Origin: a virus
Virus record (IMG/VR): IMGVR_UViG_3300027797_000026
Span: 1-64,000 of that record
Length of the DNA stretch: 64,000 nucleotides
Reading direction: 5' to 3' (one strand)
Numbering within the stretch: position 1 is the stretch's first letter; each line of letters begins with the position of its first letter. The translations under genes and the position numbers were made by a program. Below the pieces are notes generated by a model that was given only the letters and a program-made list of their open reading frames with translations, ran no database searches and had not been told where the DNA came from. This document shows, piece by piece, positions 9,452-32,726 of the stretch.

Positions 9452-10300
9452 TTAGTGTTCTTTAAAATCACCCATAAATGCATCAGAAAGTTTTTCTCCT
9501 TCTAATCCAGAGGCCTGATACTTTTTAATCAGCTCTCTTGTAAATTGTGGGTTTTCTTTTAGGGGTTGCATCCACTTACCAATAAATTGCATAAATGTAA
9601 TGTCGTCTTTATCTTTAATCTGCTCGTAATATTCTGGAGTCTTGTAGTTATAAAATGTTCCAGGGTTATCTTCTGCTTTTAGCACAAAGTTTGAGAAAGC
9701 ATATCTTCTTCCAGAATCAACTGGCTTAACTCCGTGTGCATGTGTATTAAAAGCTCCGTGAATAATAAGGTCGCCTCTTTCTGGCTTTATTCTTAGCTGA
9801 TCTTCTTCTTTAACTGCATCTTGTCTAATTCCGTCTTTGTCTATATTTACATAGAATATTTCTCCGCCAACAAAATCTCCAAAATAAGCAACTAAACCAA
9901 AATCAAGCTCGCAGCAAGTTTTCCATACATCAACCTGTGACAATCTGTGGCACTCGCCTTTTCCAGGTGAGTCTGAATGAGTAAACATTCCTTCGTTCAT
10001 TTCTGGAGTAATAATTAATACGTTTCCTTGTGGGTGCATTACATACTCTGGGTACAAAAGCTCACTTGCCTTTTCCCAAAGCGGGTGTATAGCTTCAAGT
10101 GGTGGGCTTATTTTATTAGAGTACCAGCTTATAAGAGTGTCCATGTATTCTTGGTCGCACTTATAGTCTTTAAGTTCTTCTTCAACCGTTTTGCACTCTT
10201 CATCGGTAAAAAATCCTTTAAATATAAAAACTCCACTTTGTGTGCCGTACTCATCTAAAAAGAATGAGGCCTTGATACAATCTTCTCTGTCATAAAACAT
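9452..10300 (-). CDS. 2OG-Fe(II) oxygenase, prolyl-hydroxylase-like, 282 aa
   Basis: Double-stranded beta-helix dioxygenase. H108-x-D110 (FTHSDS) and H189 (HAHGV) would hold Fe(II), and R199, ten residues on, would bind 2-oxoglutarate. The family hydroxylates protein side chains or small molecules using O2 and 2OG. The core motifs are similar to the five oxygenases at 27.2-31.6 kb, but this one stands apart on the other strand, longer and with an extra C-terminal helical part. Coupled by TAATG to the 49-aa gene. The substrate is unknown. Confidence 0.85.
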   Translation of the reverse strand: MFYDREDCIKASFFLDEYGTQSGVFIFKGFFTDEECKTVEEELKDYKCDQEYMDTLISWYSNKISPPLEAIHPLWEKASELLYPEYVMHPQGNVLIITPEMNEGMFTHSDSPGKGECHRLSQVDVWKTCCELDFGLVAYFGDFVGGEIFYVNIDKDGIRQDAVKEEDQLRIKPERGDLIIHGAFNTHAHGVKPVDSGRRYAFSNFVLKAEDNPGTFYNYKTPEYYEQIKDKDDITFMQFIGKWMQPLKENPQFTRELIKKYQASGLEGEKLSDAFMGDFKEH

Positions 10301-12110: not shown

Positions 12111-14045
12111 ATGAAAAATACTATCGAAAATCCTTATGAAAACTTTATTGCACTATCAAGATATGCTAAATGGGTAGAAGCAGAAGGACGTAGAGAGACA
12201 TGGGGAGAAACAGTAGATAGATACTTTTCTTTTATGACTAACCACTTAGAAAAAAATCACAATTACATTCCAAATGAAAAGCTAGTTGCGGAATTAAAAG
12301 AGTTTGTTTTTGAACGAAATGTAATGCCTTCCATGAGATCTGTAATGACTTCTGGGGCAGCCCTTGAAAGAGATAATGTAGCAGGATATAACTGTGCTTT
12401 CTTGCCAGTTGATTCCCCACGTTCTTTTGATGAAACTATGTATGTTTTGATGTGTGGAACTGGAGTTGGATTCTCAGTAGAATACAAGTATATTAATAAA
12501 CTTCCTGCCGTTCCAGAAAAACTTGAAAAAACGGATACAGTTATTGTAGTTGAAGATTCAAAACAAGGATGGGCTAAAGCATATCGTGAACTCCTTGCTT
12601 CACTTTGGGCAGGATATATTCCAGCAATTGATGTAACAAAAGTTAGACCTTCTGGTGCAAGATTAAAAACAATGGGTGGTCGCTCATCTGGTCCACAGCC
12701 ACTTATTAACCTTTTTGATTTTACTATTTCAAAATTTAAAGCTGCAACAGGAAGAAACCTTAAGCCGATTGAATGTCACGACATAATGTGCAAAATTGGC
12801 GAAGTAGTTGTAGTTGGTGGAGTTAGACGCTCTGCAATGATTTCACTTTCAAATATAAATGACATTGAAATGGCACAAGCTAAATCAGGTAACTGGTGGG
12901 AAGCAAGCCCACAACGTGCACTATCTAATAACTCAGTTGCGTATTCACGCAAGCCAGGAATGGAACAGTTTATTGCAGAATGGAAATCACTTTATGACTC
13001 AAAATCTGGAGAACGTGGTATATATAACGTTGCAGCAGCACAAGCACAAGCAGCTAAGTTTGGTAGAAGAGATCCAGAGATACACTATGGAACTAATCCA
13101 TGCTCTGAAATTATTTTGCGCCCATATCAGTTCTGCAATCTTTCAGAAGTAGTAGTTCGTGAAAATGATACTAAAAAAGACATTCAAAGAAAAGTTGAGT
13201 TAGCAACCATACTTGGAACATGGCAATCTACACTTACTGATTTTAAATATCTTAGAAAGATATGGAAAGATAACACAGAAGAAGAAAGATTACTAGGAGT
13301 TTCCTTGACTGGACAATTTGGACACAAGTTTATGTCTGGAAAAGAAGATTTGGTTATGCTTGAAGCATTCCTAATGACTCTTCGTGAAAAAGCAAGAGAA
13401 GTAAATAAAGAAGAGTCTGGGAAAATTGGGATTCCTGAGTCTGCAGCTATTACATGTGTAAAGCCTTCTGGAACAGTATCTCAATTGGTCGGGGTATCTT
13501 CAGGAATGCATCCATGGCATTCTCCATATTATATTCGTACAGTTCGTGGTTCAAAGGGGGATCCAATTTCTACATTTTTAAAAGAAGTTGGAATTCCAGT
13601 AGAAGATGACGTAATGAAGCCAAATGAGACTTATGTATTTTCATTTCCAGTTAAAGCTCCAGAGGGAGCAATTGTAAGAAATGACCTTACTGCAATTGAT
13701 CATTTAAATATTTGGCTAGTTTATCAACGTGCATGGTGTGAACACAAACCATCAATTACTGTTTCTGTAAAAGAAGAAGAATGGATGGAAGTAGGGGCTT
13801 GGGTATATAAAAACTTTGATGAAGTTTCTGGTATTTCATTCTTGCCTCATTCAGATCATACATATAAACAAGCTCCATACCAAGAAGTCTCAAAAGAAGA
13901 GTATGAGGCATTAGTTTCAAAGATGCCCAACAATATTCGTTGGGAAGACCTATCGTTTTATGAGACAGAAGATGGAACCTCACCCTCTGCCACCCTCGCA
14001 TGTAGCTCAGACGGCAATTGCGAACTTGTAGATATATCTGCCTAG
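12111..14045 (+). CDS. nrdJ: Class II (B12-dependent) ribonucleotide reductase, 644 aa
   Basis: Reduces ribonucleotides to deoxyribonucleotides for phage DNA synthesis using adenosylcobalamin. NPCSEIIL places the radical Cys at 331 with Asn329 and Glu333. C95 (GYNCAF) and C342 (FCNLS) are the reducible pair. KPSGTVSQL is the phosphate loop. The C-terminal ACSSDGNC holds the shuttle Cys pair that takes electrons from thioredoxin. Length fits the monomeric RTPR type. An eight-codon ORF at 12088 (MAEEKGDK) ends ATGA on this start, which could couple translation. The host must make or import B12. Confidence 0.92.
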   Translation: MKNTIENPYENFIALSRYAKWVEAEGRRETWGETVDRYFSFMTNHLEKNHNYIPNEKLVAELKEFVFERNVMPSMRSVMTSGAALERDNVAGYNCAFLPVDSPRSFDETMYVLMCGTGVGFSVEYKYINKLPAVPEKLEKTDTVIVVEDSKQGWAKAYRELLASLWAGYIPAIDVTKVRPSGARLKTMGGRSSGPQPLINLFDFTISKFKAATGRNLKPIECHDIMCKIGEVVVVGGVRRSAMISLSNINDIEMAQAKSGNWWEASPQRALSNNSVAYSRKPGMEQFIAEWKSLYDSKSGERGIYNVAAAQAQAAKFGRRDPEIHYGTNPCSEIILRPYQFCNLSEVVVRENDTKKDIQRKVELATILGTWQSTLTDFKYLRKIWKDNTEEERLLGVSLTGQFGHKFMSGKEDLVMLEAFLMTLREKAREVNKEESGKIGIPESAAITCVKPSGTVSQLVGVSSGMHPWHSPYYIRTVRGSKGDPISTFLKEVGIPVEDDVMKPNETYVFSFPVKAPEGAIVRNDLTAIDHLNIWLVYQRAWCEHKPSITVSVKEEEWMEVGAWVYKNFDEVSGISFLPHSDHTYKQAPYQEVSKEEYEALVSKMPNNIRWEDLSFYETEDGTSPSATLACSSDGNCELVDISA

Positions 14046-18481: not shown

Positions 18482-20899
18482 ATGCCGCTAAATATTTTTG
18501 ACGGTTCCAGTTGGAATCCTTTAAAAAAAGTACAGATTCATGATGGCACAGCCTGGAATGAATCAAAAGCGGCATATGTATGGACAGGTACAGAATGGAA
18601 GTCTCTACTTGATTTAAAACCAAAAAATACAGAGCTTCCAATATTATCTTTACAAAATGGTGCATTTTGGTATGCTGCACAAGAAACAGTATCTGTATCA
18701 AATGGCGTATGGGAAAATTCCCCAACATCATTTAAATATCAGTGGCAAAAATCATCTTATAGTCAATCTGGATACAATTGGTCAAACATACTTGATAAAA
18801 CTTCAAGTACATTATTATTTGACGAAGACGAATGGGCAACAATAAGATCTTTAAAGTATGTTGGATATGCTGTAAGATGCAAAGTAACAGCTACAAATGC
18901 AGCTGGTGACAATGAAGATCCTGTCTATACACTACCAAGCCCATTAATAGGACCACAAAAGCTTACTATTTTAACTGCCGCTGTAGTTGAAATTGCAGGA
19001 ATAAAACAAAACGGACGCATAAAGCTAGATTGGGTTAAACCAATTGGAGCAAATAATTTTTACATACAATATTCAGGTGCAGCATCAGGCGAAGTAGCCC
19101 TTGCTGGTGACGTTAATACATATGAAATAGATACTGGAAACGGCAGCGGAGGATTGATAGTATTAGTTAGACCATTAAATACATCTAATGCAAGTGGAAT
19201 TACTGTTGAAGGACTAGGTACAAACGCATCAGTTTCTGATGTTAAGCCAAATAAACCTGCAGTAACATCGAGCCTTGTTTCAAAATCAACTGGCGGAACA
19301 TTTAATTGGTCATTGAATTTAATTCAACCTACAGAGTGGATTATTTATAATAATGGAGAACTATATACAAGTTCTTATCTATCAGGTCTTGGTGCATCAG
19401 CAACATCTTATGAAATTGATAGAATTGGCGCAGGCGGAACTACATTTGGTTCATTTACAATTACGGTTACTGGAACAGCACCAAGATTCTCAGATACTTC
19501 ATGGTCTTCTTCACCAGCCCTTACAATAACATACCCATCAGTTCCTCTACCAGTAAATCAAACGGCACCAACTGTTTCTGGAACAGGAAGATCATTTACA
19601 TCAACAAATGGAACATGGAGCAACTCAAATTCAATATCTTCATACATACATGAATGGTACGCAGACGGCGTAACAATACCATTTGGAATTGGAAGCAGTT
19701 TAAGTTTAGGAGATACAACACAGTATGATAACAAATCAATAACATCTTCTGTTTACGTATTAACCACTGATTTAAATACTACCGCAAAAACATATAGTAG
19801 CAACTCAGTCCCATCTACAACAATTGCTGCTGAAGAGCCTACTTCTCCTGTTCAATATTGGGGATGTTGTTCAAACGGAGGTGGAGTTACTGGAGTTTAT
19901 GCAAATAGTGGTGCAGCCGTAACTGGTTTAGGCCAATTATGTGCAAATGACGAACCTGGTAACACCTTAACTGGCGGAGTTTCCAGAACAGCAGTTTGTG
20001 TAGCTGTAAATTATACAATTCCAAACTTAGTTGGTATTTATACCCCTGCCAGCACATCAAATTACAACATTTCAGTTGGAACTTCTGTTGCAACTACTGA
20101 TTATACAAAAGAAGGAGTTGTTTCTTCTCAATCTCCAGTAGCTGGAACAATTGTAAGCTCTCCTCCAATTCCTACAATCACTGTACGTCAATTTGCTTAT
20201 CAGGCACCACCAGATTTCCCACCAGGATTACCAGCATGTCCTGGAACTATAACTAATGCAAACGCATACACATGTAATGAATTAGGAAGAACACTTCTTG
20301 GAAACTCTACTAATTATTCAATAAGCGTTGGACAACAATGCTGCGGAGATCTTGTAACATGTCCTTCTCCAGGAGAATGGAGTGCATGGAGTACATGCGT
20401 TGGAAGTAGCCAAAGTAGAACAAGAACAAATTATCGTTATGCTACATGTACATCTTATACTGAAACTCAAACACAATCTTGTACCCCACCAGTAGTTAAT
20501 GTAACTTACTACGCTGGATATTCTTTATGTAATAACAACTCTGGTGTTTATGGTTCTGGAAGTCCAACCGTTAGTGGTCCATATTCAGCAGCATCAATAC
20601 CATCAGATGTAATTATGGGACCAAGCACAGCAAGAGAAGTATTTAGATATAGATCTACATCGGAAGCCGCCCTGTCTGCAGCTGCTCAAGCTGGGTGTTC
20701 TGCCCCACCATTTTTCCCACCAGCATTCCCACCTGAACCAGTGTTTGCACCACCAACATTCTTTGATCCACCAGCTTTCCCAGGTGAACCAGAGGAACCA
20801 GTGTTTGCACCACCAACATTCTTTGATCCACCAGCTTTCCCAGCACCACCAGATTTCCCACCACCAAATTTCCCAGGCGGGTTCATTAGGGCATATTGA
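18482..20899 (+). CDS. Large adhesin: Ig-like, PASTA-like, TSP1-like, Pro/Phe tail, 805 aa
   Basis: In order: an N-terminal FDGSSWNPLKKVQIHDGTAW fibre motif; Ig/FN3-type beta domains to about 450; Cys-rich CCSNGGG; a PASTA-like unit near 510-575 (IPNLVG ... SSQSPVAGTIV), a peptidoglycan-binding type; a WSAWSTC thrombospondin type 1 like unit near 635; then a Phe/Pro tail from about 740 with a 49-base exact DNA repeat, ending GGFIRAY. It looks like a cell-wall adhesin. A TSP1-like unit in a phage is unusual and should be checked by structure prediction. Confidence 0.65.
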   Translation: MPLNIFDGSSWNPLKKVQIHDGTAWNESKAAYVWTGTEWKSLLDLKPKNTELPILSLQNGAFWYAAQETVSVSNGVWENSPTSFKYQWQKSSYSQSGYNWSNILDKTSSTLLFDEDEWATIRSLKYVGYAVRCKVTATNAAGDNEDPVYTLPSPLIGPQKLTILTAAVVEIAGIKQNGRIKLDWVKPIGANNFYIQYSGAASGEVALAGDVNTYEIDTGNGSGGLIVLVRPLNTSNASGITVEGLGTNASVSDVKPNKPAVTSSLVSKSTGGTFNWSLNLIQPTEWIIYNNGELYTSSYLSGLGASATSYEIDRIGAGGTTFGSFTITVTGTAPRFSDTSWSSSPALTITYPSVPLPVNQTAPTVSGTGRSFTSTNGTWSNSNSISSYIHEWYADGVTIPFGIGSSLSLGDTTQYDNKSITSSVYVLTTDLNTTAKTYSSNSVPSTTIAAEEPTSPVQYWGCCSNGGGVTGVYANSGAAVTGLGQLCANDEPGNTLTGGVSRTAVCVAVNYTIPNLVGIYTPASTSNYNISVGTSVATTDYTKEGVVSSQSPVAGTIVSSPPIPTITVRQFAYQAPPDFPPGLPACPGTITNANAYTCNELGRTLLGNSTNYSISVGQQCCGDLVTCPSPGEWSAWSTCVGSSQSRTRTNYRYATCTSYTETQTQSCTPPVVNVTYYAGYSLCNNNSGVYGSGSPTVSGPYSAASIPSDVIMGPSTAREVFRYRSTSEAALSAAAQAGCSAPPFFPPAFPPEPVFAPPTFFDPPAFPGEPEEPVFAPPTFFDPPAFPAPPDFPPPNFPGGFIRAY
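20735..20843 (+). repeat. 49-base direct repeat in adhesin tail
   Basis: Copies at 20735-20783 and 20795-20843, period 60, identical by eye. They encode EPVFAPPTFFDPPAFP twice. Confidence 0.8.
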
Positions 20900-26357: not shown

Positions 26358-27200
26358 ATGTCAAAAAATATAGGTAATAAAGCCGCAGCACAAGACAACT
26401 TCATTGGACCAACGCCACCAACTAGTTTGACGGCAACCAACGTAGGTACTGGAAGATCATTTAATGATGGTCGTATAGATCTAGCGTGGGTTGCTCCAAC
26501 TGGTGGCAACGCCGCTACATCATATAAGATTATGCGTGGAGGAGCAGAAATTGCAACAGTTACTGCCCCTACCGTAACTTATTCAAATACTGGATTAGCA
26601 GGAGGAACAGCTTATTCTTATACAGTAAGAGCAGTAGATTCCTTTGCAACTTCAACAGATTCAAATACAGCTTCAGCAACAGCAACAACAAAGCCATCTG
26701 CTCCAACAAGCGCAGCAGCAACAGCTGGAGTTAATGCAAATACAGTTAGTTGGACAGCCCCATCAAATGGTGGATCTGCAATAACTAATTACTATGTTGT
26801 TGGTAATGATGGAACAACTGGAAATACAGCTGCAGTATCTATATCAATTGCAGATACTGCTAATACATCTCAGTACTATAACGTATATGCAGATAATGCT
26901 AATGGAAGATCAGATGCATCAAATAACACTAATACTGTTACTACTCTTGCTCCAAGCTTCTTTGCTCCACCGTTCTTCCCACCGTTCTTTCCACCAAGCT
27001 TCTTTGCACCACCGTTCTTCCCACCATTCTTTCCACCAAGCTTCTTTGCGCCACCAGGATTCTTTGCGCCACCAAGCTTCTTTGCGCCACCAAGCTTCTC
27101 CTTCGCACCGCCAAGCTTCTTTGCGCCACCAAGCTTCTCCTTTGCTCCACCAAGCTTCTTTGCACCACCAGGGTTCTCTAACTTTAGCAGATCCTATTAA
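26358..27200 (+). CDS. FN3-type adhesin with Phe/Pro repeat tail, 280 aa
   Basis: Two fibronectin type III-like domains (about 18-112 and 113-195; the first has IDLAWVAPTGGNAATSYKIM) and then an about 80-residue tail of SFFAPPxF and FFPPFFPP repeats ending FSNFSRSY. It sits directly before the oxygenase operon. The Pro-rich tail is the most obvious hydroxylation target in this genome. FN3 units often bind glycans or scaffold virion surface proteins. Confidence 0.7.
   Translation: MSKNIGNKAAAQDNFIGPTPPTSLTATNVGTGRSFNDGRIDLAWVAPTGGNAATSYKIMRGGAEIATVTAPTVTYSNTGLAGGTAYSYTVRAVDSFATSTDSNTASATATTKPSAPTSAAATAGVNANTVSWTAPSNGGSAITNYYVVGNDGTTGNTAAVSISIADTANTSQYYNVYADNANGRSDASNNTNTVTTLAPSFFAPPFFPPFFPPSFFAPPFFPPFFPPSFFAPPGFFAPPSFFAPPSFSFAPPSFFAPPSFSFAPPSFFAPPGFSNFSRSY
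26952..27175 (+). repeat. Phe/Pro tandem repeats
   Basis: Repeats of AAGCTTCTTTGCNCCACC and TTCTTCCCACCNTTCTTTCC encoding SFFAPP and FFPPFFPP. Confidence 0.85.
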
Positions 27201-27210
27201 TAATATAAAA

Positions 27211-27242
27211 CACAATAGCAAGGGGAAACCCTTGCTATTGTG
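27211..27242 (+). terminator. Strong terminator before oxygenase operon
   Basis: A perfect 14-base stem (CACAATAGCAAGGG) with a GAAA loop. It isolates the fibre transcript from the operon beginning at 27273. Confidence 0.8.
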
Positions 27243-27257
27243 CTATATAAACATAAA

Positions 27258-27272: not shown

Positions 27273-27986
27273 ATGACAAATTTAAATGAAACTTTTGGAT
27301 TTTCATCCAAAGAAATGCTTTTCCCAGGGGTTTGGGTTTATAGAGACGTAATTAAAAAAGAAACTGATGTCATTAATAGACTTAATGAAATTGGTAATTC
27401 TGCAACTAATGACAATGATTCAAGGTACGAGTGGACTTTTGGTTTTGTTGGTTATAGCGAAAAAAGGCCATCATACAGAGATTGCGAAGACATTAAAATA
27501 GGAGAAGTTAAAAATCCTAGATCTACAACAGAGTCATTAGTCAATAGTCTTTGGTCTGATTTAAGACAATCACAAATGCCAGCAGTTCAAGATTATTGTG
27601 ATATGTATAATGTCAGAATGAATTATTGGGAAGTTATGAACTGTATTAGATATGGCAAAGGACAGCACTTTCAAGAACATGCAGATCACGGATTTTCTTA
27701 TAGCGCTACAGTATCATTAGTTGCATATGTAAATGACGAGTATGAAGGCGGAAACCTGTATTTCCCTAAGCTTAATTTAGATATTAAACCAAAAGCAGGA
27801 GATCTTTATATATTCCCATCAACATATTTATTCTCACACAGAGCAATGCCAGTTGAGTCTGGCATGAAGGTTTCAATTGTAACTATGTTAGATTACAACG
27901 ACCATTCACATAGACAAGAGTTTATGCAAATGAGAAGTAAATGGGTAGAAGAAGATTTGGCCTCTGGCAAAAATCAAAATGCATAA
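27273..27986 (+). CDS. 2OG-Fe(II) oxygenase 1 of operon, 237 aa
   Basis: H136-x-D138 (QEHADH) and H189 (SHRAMPV) are the iron ligands; K199, ten residues later, binds 2OG. Lys at this place is what animal collagen prolyl 4-hydroxylases use. The NDEYEGGNLYFPK sheet is shared by all members here. The start at 27273 is set by the leaderless promoter (a longer reading from 27240 would begin inside the promoter). Overlaps the next gene by eight bases. The substrate is unknown. Confidence 0.85.
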   Translation: MTNLNETFGFSSKEMLFPGVWVYRDVIKKETDVINRLNEIGNSATNDNDSRYEWTFGFVGYSEKRPSYRDCEDIKIGEVKNPRSTTESLVNSLWSDLRQSQMPAVQDYCDMYNVRMNYWEVMNCIRYGKGQHFQEHADHGFSYSATVSLVAYVNDEYEGGNLYFPKLNLDIKPKAGDLYIFPSTYLFSHRAMPVESGMKVSIVTMLDYNDHSHRQEFMQMRSKWVEEDLASGKNQNA

Positions 27987-28701
27987 TATAGAAGCCTATA
28001 CTATAAGAGAAGGTTTAGGCCAGCTAAGCTCTTTGTCTGCTAAAAGAGACTGGATGGATAACACATACGATGCACACGCATATAAATGTTTCCCAGTTAG
28101 CTTAACAAACCAGTTGGGCTGGGGCATATCTTTTCCAGAAGACATTTCTTTTATTTGGGATGGAATTTCAGACAGCACTCCAGAACACGTAAAAGTATTG
28201 TCTGGTGAAAAATATGCATATGCTGGAAGAGCTAATGGAACAATTAGTTTTAATACTGGGCTAATGTTTAAAACTGATGAAAACTTAAGTTTAATATCTA
28301 TGCCCGTTCCAAATTTATTTATTGACGGAGCAACACCATTTACAACATTAATAAGCACGTCTTTTTTTAGAGGTGAACTACCAGCAGCCTGGATGATAAC
28401 TAAAGCAAATGAAGTTATAACAATTAAAGCAGGAACTCCAATAATTGCAATAATGACAATAGACTTAAACTCTATTAATAATTCAGAAATAACATTTAAG
28501 CCAATTTCTAGTTTACCGCAACCCTCGTTTGACCCAAATGAGTATTCTAATGTTATTTACGAATTAAACAGGACCGCAACATGGTCTAATTTTTACAGAG
28601 ATGCAGTTGACCATTTAAAAAGAAAAATAGGATCTCATCAAATAAAAGCAATTAGGTTAAAAGTAAATAATGATATAATGGAGCAAGGAGATAATAAATG
28701 A
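27979..28701 (+). CDS. DUF6065-like protein, 240 aa
   Basis: CFPVSLTNQLGWGISFPEDI is the hallmark of DUF6065, a family of unknown function that I recall occurring near 2OG oxygenases in phage and marine bacterial genomes. The protein is probably beta-rich, with no catalytic motif I can name. It lies within the oxygenase operon, four-base overlap with the next gene. It may act as a substrate-holding or partner protein. Confidence 0.65.
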   Translation: MHNIEAYTIREGLGQLSSLSAKRDWMDNTYDAHAYKCFPVSLTNQLGWGISFPEDISFIWDGISDSTPEHVKVLSGEKYAYAGRANGTISFNTGLMFKTDENLSLISMPVPNLFIDGATPFTTLISTSFFRGELPAAWMITKANEVITIKAGTPIIAIMTIDLNSINNSEITFKPISSLPQPSFDPNEYSNVIYELNRTATWSNFYRDAVDHLKRKIGSHQIKAIRLKVNNDIMEQGDNK

Positions 28702-29372
28702 AACCATCAAATAACTGGAACGGCAATCAGCCTAAATCTATAACCCCATCTGGGTTTTTTGGCAATTCTTCGAGTAACATTGTAGAAATTAAAGATTTCT
28801 TGTCTATAGAAGAAAGAGAAAGACTAATGAAGTTTGCCCTAAACAATAAAGTTTGGGACATAACAGAGACTCACAGAGACGAAGATGGTCTTGTTTTATA
28901 TGATCACAGAGTTTGGGAAGACAGAGTTTGTACATACAACTCTTTAATGGCTTCAGATCCAAGTATATTAGAATTAATTTATAGCATGATTGCAAGACTA
29001 AAAATTGAAGTTGATGCTTTCTTTGATGTTGATGCAAAAGAAACTGGGCCAGCAATTGTTAGATGGCCAGTCGGATCGAGACAAGAGCCACACGCAGATA
29101 AAGAATTTCATTCTGGTGCAGAAAAGGGCAGAGCCAATGACTTTCCTTGGTATGATTTAGCTGGACTATTTTATTTTAACGATGATTACGAAGGCGGAGA
29201 ACTTTATTTCCCACAACATGGAATTGAATTTAAGCCAGTTGCTGGAGCTGCATATTTTTTTCCAGGAGACATGCATTATACACACGGAGTACGTCCAGTA
29301 AAATCTGGAAATAGATTTACATCTCCATTTTTTTGGACGATTAAAAAACATACGGGGGAAAAACAGCCATGA
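28698..29372 (+). CDS. 2OG-Fe(II) oxygenase 2 of operon, 224 aa
   Basis: H132-x-D134 (EPHADKEFH), H196 (YTHGVRPV), R206 (SGNRFTSPFFW). Core strand FNDDYEGGELYFP. The N-terminal 30 residues are extra and not conserved. ATGA overlaps at both ends. P4H-type oxygenase by motif. Confidence 0.85.
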   Translation: MKPSNNWNGNQPKSITPSGFFGNSSSNIVEIKDFLSIEERERLMKFALNNKVWDITETHRDEDGLVLYDHRVWEDRVCTYNSLMASDPSILELIYSMIARLKIEVDAFFDVDAKETGPAIVRWPVGSRQEPHADKEFHSGAEKGRANDFPWYDLAGLFYFNDDYEGGELYFPQHGIEFKPVAGAAYFFPGDMHYTHGVRPVKSGNRFTSPFFWTIKKHTGEKQP

Positions 29373-30187
29373 GTGAATTAGATTATGTAGAGCTTTATCC
29401 AAAGGTAGATGTGTACAGAAATGTATTACAAGACCCAGCACAACTTTATGAAGTAATGAACAATTCTGAAAAAACTTCAGAGGGGAAATACTTTTTACAT
29501 AAATGGGACCCTTGGGCACATTTTGGTACTTACACACAGAAGAAAGATATGAGAGAGGTTTCTCCAGAAGTCTTGTCTGACGAAATGTTTCTTAAAGAAA
29601 AGAAATTTGTTGAAGAAGTAGAAGAGGCATACAAAAAAGTAATTCTAGACTATGTAGAAAGACATGGGATTGATCTTCCAGAAGGATGGCATTTTAGCGG
29701 ATGCTCATACTCTAAATATAATGCTAAAATTGATACCCTGCTTAATAAAATGACAATGCAATATCACACAGACCATATAACTTCTCAAAAAGATATGCCT
29801 GGAGATAAATTTTTTCTAACATGCACAATGTACATTAACGATGACTATGATGGCGGAGACATAGAGTTTTATATTGATGGACAGCTTATCAATCACAAAC
29901 CAGCAGCTGGAGACATACTAGTGTTTCCATCTACTCAGCCATATTTTCATGGAGTAAAAACAATTAATACTAATGAAAAGTTTTTTGTTAGAAACTTTAT
30001 AATGACCCCACACAACGGAACAGAAGAATGGCTAGCCAACCAAAGAAAATATGGGGCATACCGATGGGCAAAAACAGAAGCAGAAAGAATAGATTACGAA
30101 GACAAAAGAAACATGCTTTACTTTAATGATGGAAAAATTCTTTCATATGAAGATTATATTGAAATTAAAAAAGGGTGGTTAGATTAA
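29369..30187 (+). CDS. 2OG-Fe(II) oxygenase 3 of operon, 272 aa
   Basis: H133-x-D135 (YHTDHITS), H194 (YFHGVKTIN), K204. The longest in the operon, with a C-terminal 65-residue extension rich in aromatic and charged residues (YGAYRWAKTEAERIDYEDKR). Divergent, so the substrate may differ from its neighbours. Confidence 0.85.
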   Translation: MSELDYVELYPKVDVYRNVLQDPAQLYEVMNNSEKTSEGKYFLHKWDPWAHFGTYTQKKDMREVSPEVLSDEMFLKEKKFVEEVEEAYKKVILDYVERHGIDLPEGWHFSGCSYSKYNAKIDTLLNKMTMQYHTDHITSQKDMPGDKFFLTCTMYINDDYDGGDIEFYIDGQLINHKPAAGDILVFPSTQPYFHGVKTINTNEKFFVRNFIMTPHNGTEEWLANQRKYGAYRWAKTEAERIDYEDKRNMLYFNDGKILSYEDYIEIKKGWLD

Positions 30188-30188
30188 A

Positions 30189-30941
30189 ATGGAAAGAGAT
30201 ATGATTATAACTAGACATAAGCCAGACATTGTTCAGTATGACAATTTTTTAACCCCAGAAGAATGTAAATCAATCATTGATATCTTGGCAATAAAAATGG
30301 AAAAAGAGCAACTTAAATGGATGCCAATTTCATTTTATGAGTCTTATTCATCAGGAACCCCAGAGGTAAACGATCCAGATGTGCTTGCGGCTAATCTCCC
30401 AGGAGATTTTTTTAAGTCATTAGAGCAGAGAGTAATTGATGCTACAGCAGAAATGGCAGGCAAAGATCCAAAGCAAATGTCAAAAATTAGTTGGCACTCA
30501 CAAAGATGGGCACCAGGAGCATTTGCAAATATGCATTCTGACAATACTTCTAATGAAGGAGTGTCTGGAGCGTTTACTAGAAGTAGATACGCAACATTCC
30601 TTTATTTAAATGATGACTTTGAAGATGGAGTTTTAAACTTTAAGCACGGCCTAACAATTGTTCCAAAAACTGGAACCTTAGTAACATTTGCTGGTGGCTT
30701 TGAAAATATGCATGAAGTTACCACAGTAAAGAAAGCAATTCGATACACCCTAGGATCATTTTGGGATGACAGAGAAGAATCAGATTACCCACAAGAAGTC
30801 AGAGATGCTTGGGCAGAAGAGCTTGCAAAGATACGAGCAATTCAAAAAGAAGAAGCGGCTGAATGGGAAGACTACAGAAATAAAGGCCTTAGAATAACTT
30901 CACAAGGAAAAGAATATCCTGCTTCAGAAGTGGAAAATTAA
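30189..30941 (+). CDS. 2OG-Fe(II) oxygenase 4 of operon, 250 aa
   Basis: H116-x-D118 (NMHSDNTS), H175 (NMHEVTTV), R185. A helical, charged C-terminus from about 195 (EVRDAWAEELAKIRAIQKEE) looks like a protein-binding tail. No overlap, one base after the previous stop. Confidence 0.85.
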   Translation: MERDMIITRHKPDIVQYDNFLTPEECKSIIDILAIKMEKEQLKWMPISFYESYSSGTPEVNDPDVLAANLPGDFFKSLEQRVIDATAEMAGKDPKQMSKISWHSQRWAPGAFANMHSDNTSNEGVSGAFTRSRYATFLYLNDDFEDGVLNFKHGLTIVPKTGTLVTFAGGFENMHEVTTVKKAIRYTLGSFWDDREESDYPQEVRDAWAEELAKIRAIQKEEAAEWEDYRNKGLRITSQGKEYPASEVEN

Positions 30942-30942
30942 T

Positions 30943-31593
30943 ATGCAAAAGGATGTTGATTTTAAACAGTTTACTTTATTTGATTTACAAGTTCTAGAAA
31001 ATAATATTTGGTATTGGGAAAATGCTTTAAGTTTTCCAAATGAACTAAATACGTTTATAGAAGAAATAGATTCTGAGCCACTTTCTTATTCAAGAATTTC
31101 AAAATGGAATAATTGGACTGCAAGCGACGACTCAAATTTAATATACGGTGCTACAAAAAACATATCAATGGCTCAACTTAAAGAAACTACTGGATCTGAT
31201 GAAGTAGATAAAAAAACTTTATATATTGCAAATAGTTTTGCAATGGCTTTTGAGATGGCTAGCGATAGATATTTTGCAGGACACAATTTAGATAAAGCCC
31301 GTTATAATTTAGAAATAAATACAATCCCAATTAAAAAATGGAATCAGGGACAATCAATGGGCCCCCATTTTGATGGTCAGGACGGGAATAAAGATTTAGC
31401 ATTTTCATTAGTTGCTTATATTAATGATGACTACGAAGGTGGAGAAATTAATTTTCCAAATCAAAATGTTACTGTAAAGCCAAAGGCTGGAAGCTTAATT
31501 ATGTTTCCTTCACAACTTCCATATTTACATGAAGTAAAGCCTATTGTTTCTGGCACAAGATATATGAGCCCAGCACACGCATATATTAAATAG
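30943..31593 (+). CDS. 2OG-Fe(II) oxygenase 5 of operon, 216 aa
   Basis: H142-x-D144 (GPHFDGQ), H196 (YLHEVKPI), R206. Core strand NDDYEGGEINFPN. The operon's last oxygenase; the next gene is a collagen-like fibre with its own leaderless promoter, 20 bases downstream. Confidence 0.85.
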   Translation: MQKDVDFKQFTLFDLQVLENNIWYWENALSFPNELNTFIEEIDSEPLSYSRISKWNNWTASDDSNLIYGATKNISMAQLKETTGSDEVDKKTLYIANSFAMAFEMASDRYFAGHNLDKARYNLEINTIPIKKWNQGQSMGPHFDGQDGNKDLAFSLVAYINDDYEGGEINFPNQNVTVKPKAGSLIMFPSQLPYLHEVKPIVSGTRYMSPAHAYIK

Positions 31594-31613: not shown

Positions 31614-32726
31614 ATGAGCACAACAGGCAAGGGCTTTAGATACCCAGTATACACAGACACCCCAGACGTACCCAGAGACCTTGGATACCTTGCGGCTGAT
31701 GTAGATGCCTACCTGGATGCTCATCCAGGCCCACAGGGGCCTTCAGGAACGTTATCCGTAGGCTCTGTTACTACAGTTAGCGCCTCTACTCCAGCGTCAG
31801 TTGTAAATGTTGGAACCGCATCAGCAGCTATATTAAATCTAACTTTGCCTAGAGGAATTGATGGTATTATTGGCGGTCCAGGTCCTTCAAATGTATTGTC
31901 TATTGGAACTGTAGCACAGGGCGGTACAGCATCAGCAACAATTACTGGAACCTCACCTACACAGACATTAAATTTAGTTTTGCCAGAAGGCCCACAAGGA
32001 ATACAGGGTCCAGTTGGCCCGCAGGGTCCTACCACGCTTGCGGTTGGAACGACTACAACTGGTGCAGCTGGAACAAATGCTTCAGTTACAAACACTGGCA
32101 CAAGTACAGCAGCAGTTTTTGCATTTACAATTCCAAGAGGAGCAACTGGTGCCACAGGTGCCACTGGAGCACAAGGAATTCCTGGTTCAAGTGCAACAAT
32201 AGATCCAGTGCCAACTACAATATCTTTAAATATTCCAACAACAGCAGGCTACGGAGTAAACTCAAATTGGTACCCACTTGCAAACAATTTATACTCAATT
32301 GGTCAGCCAATAGATACTCCTTCAGGAGTTACATCAAACAGATTTTGGAAAACAATATATTCTAATACTGGAGCAGTTGCTACATCAGATCAGCGACTAA
32401 AGACAGATATAGTTAGCTCCACACTCGGTCTTAATTTTATAAACGATTTAAATCCAGTAAGTTATAAGTTTATTGAAGGCGGTAAAGAAATAGTTGATGG
32501 TGATTTAGTTTCTATACCTGGATCAAGAACTCATTACGGACTTATTGCACAAGAGGTAAAAGAAGTTTTAGATGCATCTGGAGTAGCAGATTTTGCTGGT
32601 TGGGTAAAGCTGGATATGTCAGAAGCAGATTCTATGCAAGCATTAAGATATGATCAGTTTATTGCACCACTTATTAAAGCAGTACAAGAGCTTACAGCGA
32701 GAGTTAAAGCCCTAGAAGAGATTTAA
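31614..32726 (+). CDS. Collagen-like fibre with S74 chaperone domain, 370 aa
   Basis: Short collagen-type Gly-X-Y parts (PGPQGPSG, GPQGIQGPVGPQGPT, GATGATGATGAQGIPG) alternate with beta repeats. The C-terminal third from about 256 (SDQRLKTDIV ... HYGLIAQEV) is a peptidase S74 / intramolecular chaperone, which assists trimerisation and then usually cuts itself off; the Ser nucleophile is in ATSDQR. Prolines in the Y position are the classic target of prolyl 4-hydroxylases, and this gene follows the oxygenase operon directly. Confidence 0.8.
   Translation: MSTTGKGFRYPVYTDTPDVPRDLGYLAADVDAYLDAHPGPQGPSGTLSVGSVTTVSASTPASVVNVGTASAAILNLTLPRGIDGIIGGPGPSNVLSIGTVAQGGTASATITGTSPTQTLNLVLPEGPQGIQGPVGPQGPTTLAVGTTTTGAAGTNASVTNTGTSTAAVFAFTIPRGATGATGATGAQGIPGSSATIDPVPTTISLNIPTTAGYGVNSNWYPLANNLYSIGQPIDTPSGVTSNRFWKTIYSNTGAVATSDQRLKTDIVSSTLGLNFINDLNPVSYKFIEGGKEIVDGDLVSIPGSRTHYGLIAQEVKEVLDASGVADFAGWVKLDMSEADSMQALRYDQFIAPLIKAVQELTARVKALEEI

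Follow-up and report, generated by a model that had tools for sequence, protein, structure and literature searches.

Five prolyl-hydroxylase-like oxygenases and a DUF6065 protein as a probable tailoring cassette for Phe/Pro-repeat tail proteins of freshwater phages

What does a tailed phage do with five oxygenases encoded in a row among its tail genes? The question is raised by IMG/VR record IMGVR_UViG_3300027797_000026 (67,380 bp), of which we analyzed a 64,000-nt part, referred to below as the window. Positions 27273 to 31593 hold six consecutive plus-strand genes that overlap or lie 1 to 2 bases apart, comprising five 2-oxoglutarate (2OG) oxygenases of family PF13640, here OG1 to OG5, and one DUF6065 protein. 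This cassette lies between a tail protein that ends in a Phe/Pro (F/P) repeat and a tail fiber with short collagen-like stretches, flanking genes that an initial annotation of the sequence had described correctly. Across many relatives the enzymes follow the F/P repeat, and the virus thus probably modifies its own tail chemically. We consider it likely that the block is a cassette for post-translational tailoring of the phage's own repeat-tailed tail proteins, with proline hydroxylation as the most likely chemistry. The features of the locus are as follows.

18482 to 20899, plus strand: large tail protein, the C-terminus of which is a Phe/Pro repeat ending in ...GGFIRAY
26358 to 27200, plus strand: fn3-domain tail protein with a Phe/Pro repeat tail of ~80 residues ending in ...FSRSY
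27209 to 27244: perfect hairpin between the 26358 F/P gene and the cassette
27273 to 27986, plus strand: oxygenase OG1, ATG start, Lys as 2OG anchor
27979 to 28701, plus strand: DUF6065 protein (PF19541), constant partner of OG1 and OG2
28698 to 29372, plus strand: oxygenase OG2, Arg as 2OG anchor
29369 to 30187, plus strand: oxygenase OG3, Lys as 2OG anchor
30189 to 30941, plus strand: oxygenase OG4, Arg as 2OG anchor
30943 to 31593, plus strand: oxygenase OG5, Arg as 2OG anchor
31614 to 32726, plus strand: tail fiber with short collagen-like stretches and an S74 chaperone domain
9452 to 10300, minus strand: sixth, divergent 2OG oxygenase, Arg as 2OG anchor

Active sites, age, and fold of the oxygenases

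All five cassette oxygenases exceed the Pfam cut-off for PF13640 (33 to 53 bits versus 27; E-values of 8e-14 to 1e-7), and each contains the HxD...H-x9-[R/K] signature read from them in the initial annotation, including the Lys at the 2OG position of the enzymes at 27273 and 29369. The open reading frame of OG1 has an additional GTG upstream of its ATG, at 27240. Exactly six PF13640 matches occur in the whole record. The sixth, which had been counted as a further copy, keeps the same catalytic set; it scores below the cut-off (21.6 versus 27 bits) and has "FGDFVGG" instead of the ND[DE][YF][ED] sheet motif shared by OG1 to OG5. Among the sequences examined, it is closest to the last cassette gene of locus L067.

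All 451 slot orthologues checked, each 190 residues or longer, keep the HxD...H iron triad and the Arg/Lys 2OG anchor. In a tree of 97 representatives, OG1 to OG5 form separate long-stemmed clades, each mostly confined to its own slot, and every gene of the block has a dN/dS of 0.01 to 0.17 when compared with four relatives. The five enzymes are therefore anciently diverged paralogues that purifying selection maintains, not spare copies from a recent duplication. In most of the relatives searched we counted 5 to 12 PF13640 genes, so that six oxygenases, previously judged far beyond usual for one phage, are ordinary within this group.

Searched against solved structures, a profile built from OG1 and OG5 retrieves prolyl 4-hydroxylases (P4Hs) first (5.9e-11 for the Bacillus anthracis enzyme). 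An AlphaFold model of OG1 (pLDDT 86) shows the double-stranded beta-helix fold of P4Hs, and its top matches in the PDB are all P4H or PHD enzymes, namely the viral collagen P4H of PBCV-1 (5c5t; the best, E-value of 4.7e-11), PHD2 with a HIF peptide, and an algal P4H with (Ser-Pro)5 (3gze; 4.2e-10). The closest solved relatives are thus peptidyl-prolyl hydroxylases, in keeping with the earlier description of the enzymes as prolyl-hydroxylase-like, and this likeness of profiles and model favors, without proving, a peptide substrate. NCBIfam yielded subthreshold matches only, including a cyclophane-peptide oxygenase (E-value of 0.077), which we do not use as evidence. The product of 27979 to 28701 is a clear DUF6065 protein (101 bits versus a PF19541 cut-off of 26.6; E-value of 7e-29); a first scan of bacterial genomes found no DUF6065, and a second found remote copies without neighboring oxygenases as well as the contig L615, which is described below.

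The cassette can be placed beside several known systems. PBCV-1 P4H resembles OG1 in being viral and in its fold; it is a single algal-virus enzyme acting on collagen-like or PAPK-type peptides, whereas the phage cassette joins five paralogues to DUF6065 in a tailed phage and is tied to Phe/Pro repeats. The P4Hs of B. anthracis (3itq and 5hv0) and of Pseudomonas, the latter solved with EF-Tu (4iw3), are closest by profile and have the same catalytic residues; these are chromosomal single genes, whereas the phage oxygenases belong to a tail cassette. The algal P4H likewise acts on a proline-rich repeat, of the Ser-Pro cell-wall type, in contrast to the Phe-rich Pro-Pro repeat of the phage. Among phages, the 2OG-Fe(II) oxygenases of T4-like cyanophages fall in PHROG 61 with the cassette oxygenases. 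Matches in isolate phages are at best about 25 to 32% identical, and the isolate phages searched contained no near DNA match to the window phage and no DUF6065. Synechococcus phage S-H9-1 (L624) has two 2OG oxygenases beside a short tail fiber gene, and tail-linked oxygenases may be more widespread; other copies of PHROG 61 lie among replication genes.

Neighbors of the cassette across relatives

Relatives were gathered by DUF6065 and by the major capsid protein (MCP). In most of them the gene order is F/P protein, OG1, DUF6065, OG2, OG3, OG4, and OG5, and in 26 records that were read whole the F/P protein lies upstream of the cassette wherever the site is covered. The constant place of DUF6065 beside OG1 and OG2 bears out its proposed role as a partner of the oxygenases. 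An F/P gene is found within 4.5 kb upstream of DUF6065 in 65 of the 70 distinct loci with enough upstream sequence; among the other five, L285 and L322 have one slightly farther away and L485 is a 4-kb fragment. Of 58 loci, 39 have the collagen fiber and 19 lack it, with the oxygenases retained in both groups; the records G031, G032, G034, and G035, for example, carry the cassette and have no collagen gene at that place.

We also scanned IMG/VR without reference to the enzymes, using the DNA of PPxFFxPPxFFxPP, which gave 71 testable loci, and compared these with 80 loci from a scan for collagen (GPx)n. Within 6 kb, an oxygenase was found at 56 and DUF6065 at 49 of the 71 F/P loci, versus 6 and none, respectively, of the 80 collagen loci; the F/P counts are not independent trials, since these loci are mostly of one clade. 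The proposal that the enzymes act on the phage's own fibers is thus supported as regards a link to the Phe/Pro tail and not supported for the collagen fiber. The fn3-Phe/Pro protein at 26358 is the probable main substrate, and the product of 18482 to 20899, a second Phe/Pro-tailed gene that the initial annotation had missed, a probable second one; the 31614 fiber is probably a neighbor and not a substrate.

The hairpin ahead of the cassette is perfect (−26.1 kcal/mol, z of −7.0), and a strong hairpin occurs at the same spot in seven of eight relatives, with differing sequences. It may be a terminator or processing site, in which case the output of tail protein and of enzymes may differ; a structural protein needed in bulk, with enzymes required at lower levels behind it, would fit such an arrangement. 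Elsewhere in the window, a ribonucleotide reductase (phrog_367) is encoded at 12111 to 14045, shortly upstream of the tail genes.

Repeat architecture and natural exchange of repeat and cassette

The repeat itself is strongly patterned. In 140 distinct F/P tracts the Pro-Pro dyads are spaced almost always by 4 or 2 residues, and the Phe residues that flank them are nearly invariant, as [GSAVLRN]FF[ASG]PP or [FHY]FPP. In many relatives the repeat runs directly into the Cys that opens a Hint domain, the profile of which matches a solved bacterial intein-like (BIL) domain (PDB 2lwy; E-value of 1.3e-7); C1 and G23-D24 of this domain are invariant in 13 members. It thus caps a phage tail repeat in these relatives and is absent from the window protein. 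Hint or intein-like domains follow F/P repeats at the following positions, among others.

L018, 7888 to 9213
L022, 76 to 2190
L045, 7868 to 9208
L060, 2 to 1198
L064, 3 to 2486
L067, 5020 to 7041

Several Hint domains end in ...IAIA or ...IIRN and others in VVHN or LTHN; because the C-terminal His-Asn needed for full splicing is not kept in some members, cleavage and not splicing is expected of these. The window phage and its closest relatives have no Hint domain there; their repeats run out in C-termini resembling ...F-x-R-x-Y. By eye, the F/P repeat of L285 (9631 to 10284) is followed by a third kind of C-terminal cap, an S74-type chaperone-like domain. Where a genome has two F/P proteins, these often end alike, as if homogenized; examples are those of the window (18482 to 20899 and 26358 to 27200) and pairs in relatives. 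Within-genome pairs share their C-terminal ending above expectation (mean of 0.44 versus 0.17 in shuffles; 29 pairs, uncorrected for relatedness), as expected if the same machinery handles both proteins.

A natural exchange is seen in L104 and L109. Their MCPs are 85 to 86% identical to that of the window, and the corresponding site of their genomes is occupied by a different cassette. In the record of L104 (G021), the fn3 protein at this site has (FGFTP)n in place of the F/P repeat, and the record of L109 was also recovered by a scan for FGF repeats. That scan for (FGFxP)n returned 109 stretches, including L104, L109, L508, and L538. The alternative cassette encodes two remote DUF6065-like proteins, two other 2OG oxygenases, a glycosyltransferase-like protein, an SDR-like gene, and a protein whose WHDH...H pattern makes it look, by eye, like a further 2OG oxygenase and which has no Pfam match. 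A 272-residue protein of the (FGFxP) cassette was considered as a hydroxyproline-glycosylating enzyme and dropped, as it has no Pfam match. G021 also contains a Hint-like domain that lacks its Cys.

When loci of 6 kb or more are compared, the two repeat types differ in cassette content, with DUF6065 at 136 of 165 F/P loci and one of 81 FGF loci, and the OXY5 family at 5 of 165 and 53 of 81, respectively. A portal tree places at least four changes of repeat type, and the cassette changes along with the repeat in four of four independent pairs; portals up to 91% identical occur in phages with different repeats.

Part of the cassette recurs in other phages. In the records G041 to G044, the largest of which is 205 kb (G041, locus L331), a small F/P protein with a PASTA-like region, assigned by eye, adjoins OG2, OG1, and DUF6065. 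The oxygenases best match OG1 and OG2 at 38 to 41% identity, and tblastn found no match in these records to the MCP or portal of the window phage. PASTA-F/P, OG2, OG1, and DUF6065 also occur together in L615 (DUCD01000215.1), which carries phage tail genes and is probably a phage contig; it is filed under a Verrucomicrobiales metagenome-assembled genome and also has genes that look TauD-like by eye. As this set recurs beside F/P proteins in both cases, OG1, OG2, and DUF6065 form the core, and OG3 to OG5 are additions to it. OG3 is found also in L370, in a record with an MCP 53% identical to that of the window.

Proposed maturation of the tail repeat and competing explanations

The tailoring reading builds on the gene content, the intact active sites, the purifying selection, the F/P linkage, and the joint switching of repeat and cassette; the substrate, chemistry, and order of steps we infer. 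The fn3-Phe/Pro protein, and probably also the 18482 Phe/Pro protein, would be made first. The oxygenases would then use O2 and 2OG to hydroxylate residues of the repeat, the likeliest targets being the Pro-Pro dyads of [x]FF[x]PP and FFPP units; the enzymes would divide the positions among themselves or act one after another, and DUF6065 would accompany OG1 and OG2 as their constant partner. Where relatives have a Hint domain after the repeat, this domain probably cleaves and would free the C-terminus of the repeat; in the window phage the repeat would already end at its natural C-terminus. We are evenly divided on a broader formulation, in which freshwater tailed phages possess exchangeable maturation cassettes of oxygenases and DUF6065-type proteins that rewrite a low-complexity tail repeat, either Phe/Pro or FGFxP, with Hint processing in some, in a manner like that of ribosomally synthesized and post-translationally modified peptides, and in which repeat and cassette are exchanged as a module.

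Several observations weigh against the tailoring reading. Most F/P loci come from a single clade, phage gene order is conservative, and a sign test on the four repeat/cassette pairs gives a p of 0.125, significance being unreachable with four. OG3 to OG5 are limited to part of the lineages. The TM-scores of the OG1 model to known P4Hs are moderate (0.5 to 0.63), and enzymes with the 2OG oxygenase fold include some that act on nucleic acids or small molecules. For DUF6065, the AlphaFold model is too poor for use (pLDDT 43) and no relative was found among PDB structures.

Other explanations were weighed against the same evidence. That the oxygenases hydroxylate the collagen-like Gly-x-y triplets of the 31614 fiber, stabilizing a triple helix, would fit a fiber encoded next downstream in the window and in the 39 relatives counted above, as well as a top fold match to a viral collagen P4H. 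It is nonetheless very unlikely, as 19 relatives keep the cassette without this fiber, only 6 of the 80 collagen-repeat loci elsewhere have an oxygenase nearby and none has DUF6065, and the collagen stretches of the fiber are short (six triplets). About as improbable is a role of the cassette in producing or altering a glycan, or some other moiety, for attachment to the tail, with oxygenases that do not act on repeat residues: the FGFxP cassette does include glycosyltransferase-like and SDR-like genes, and some F/P loci have, as judged by eye, sulfotransferase- or acetyltransferase-like genes close by, but the block in the window has no glycosyltransferase, the glycosyltransferase-like protein of the FGFxP cassette has no Pfam match, and the closest solved relatives of the oxygenases act on peptides.

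It is also unlikely, if less so, that the oxygenases are auxiliary genes directed at host metabolism or a host protein such as EF-Tu and lie among tail genes by chance or through shared late expression. The 2OG oxygenases of marine and freshwater phages are usually treated in this way (PMC5628999, PMC6359870, and PMC10611076), the Pseudomonas P4H was solved with EF-Tu, and further oxygenases sit elsewhere in the genomes of these relatives; left unexplained are the fixed site beside the repeat protein, the recurrence in another lineage, and the joint switch of repeat and cassette. Finally, the location of these genes inside the structural region could suggest that oxygenase-fold proteins are virion components for which catalysis is unneeded, which is hardly credible given that all metal and 2OG ligands are intact in every orthologue checked.

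Viral prolyl hydroxylation as such is already known from PBCV-1, and viral hydroxyproline was proposed early (Eriksson 1999), both as cited in PMC9301287, a study of viral P4H genes in which how viruses use P4H "remains cryptic". In the open-access literature searched, we found no description of a multi-enzyme, repeat-matched, and exchangeable cassette in phages. The 2OG oxygenases are common yet unexplained genes of aquatic phages, and this large group offers a concrete candidate answer that can be tested, with a defined probable substrate next door, a cassette of five enzymes, and repeats and cassettes that have been swapped in nature. If the tailoring reading is true, the tail proteins of common lake phages would be modified post-translationally by the phages' own enzymes, DUF6065 would gain its first functional context, and new repeat-peptide-modifying enzymes would become available.

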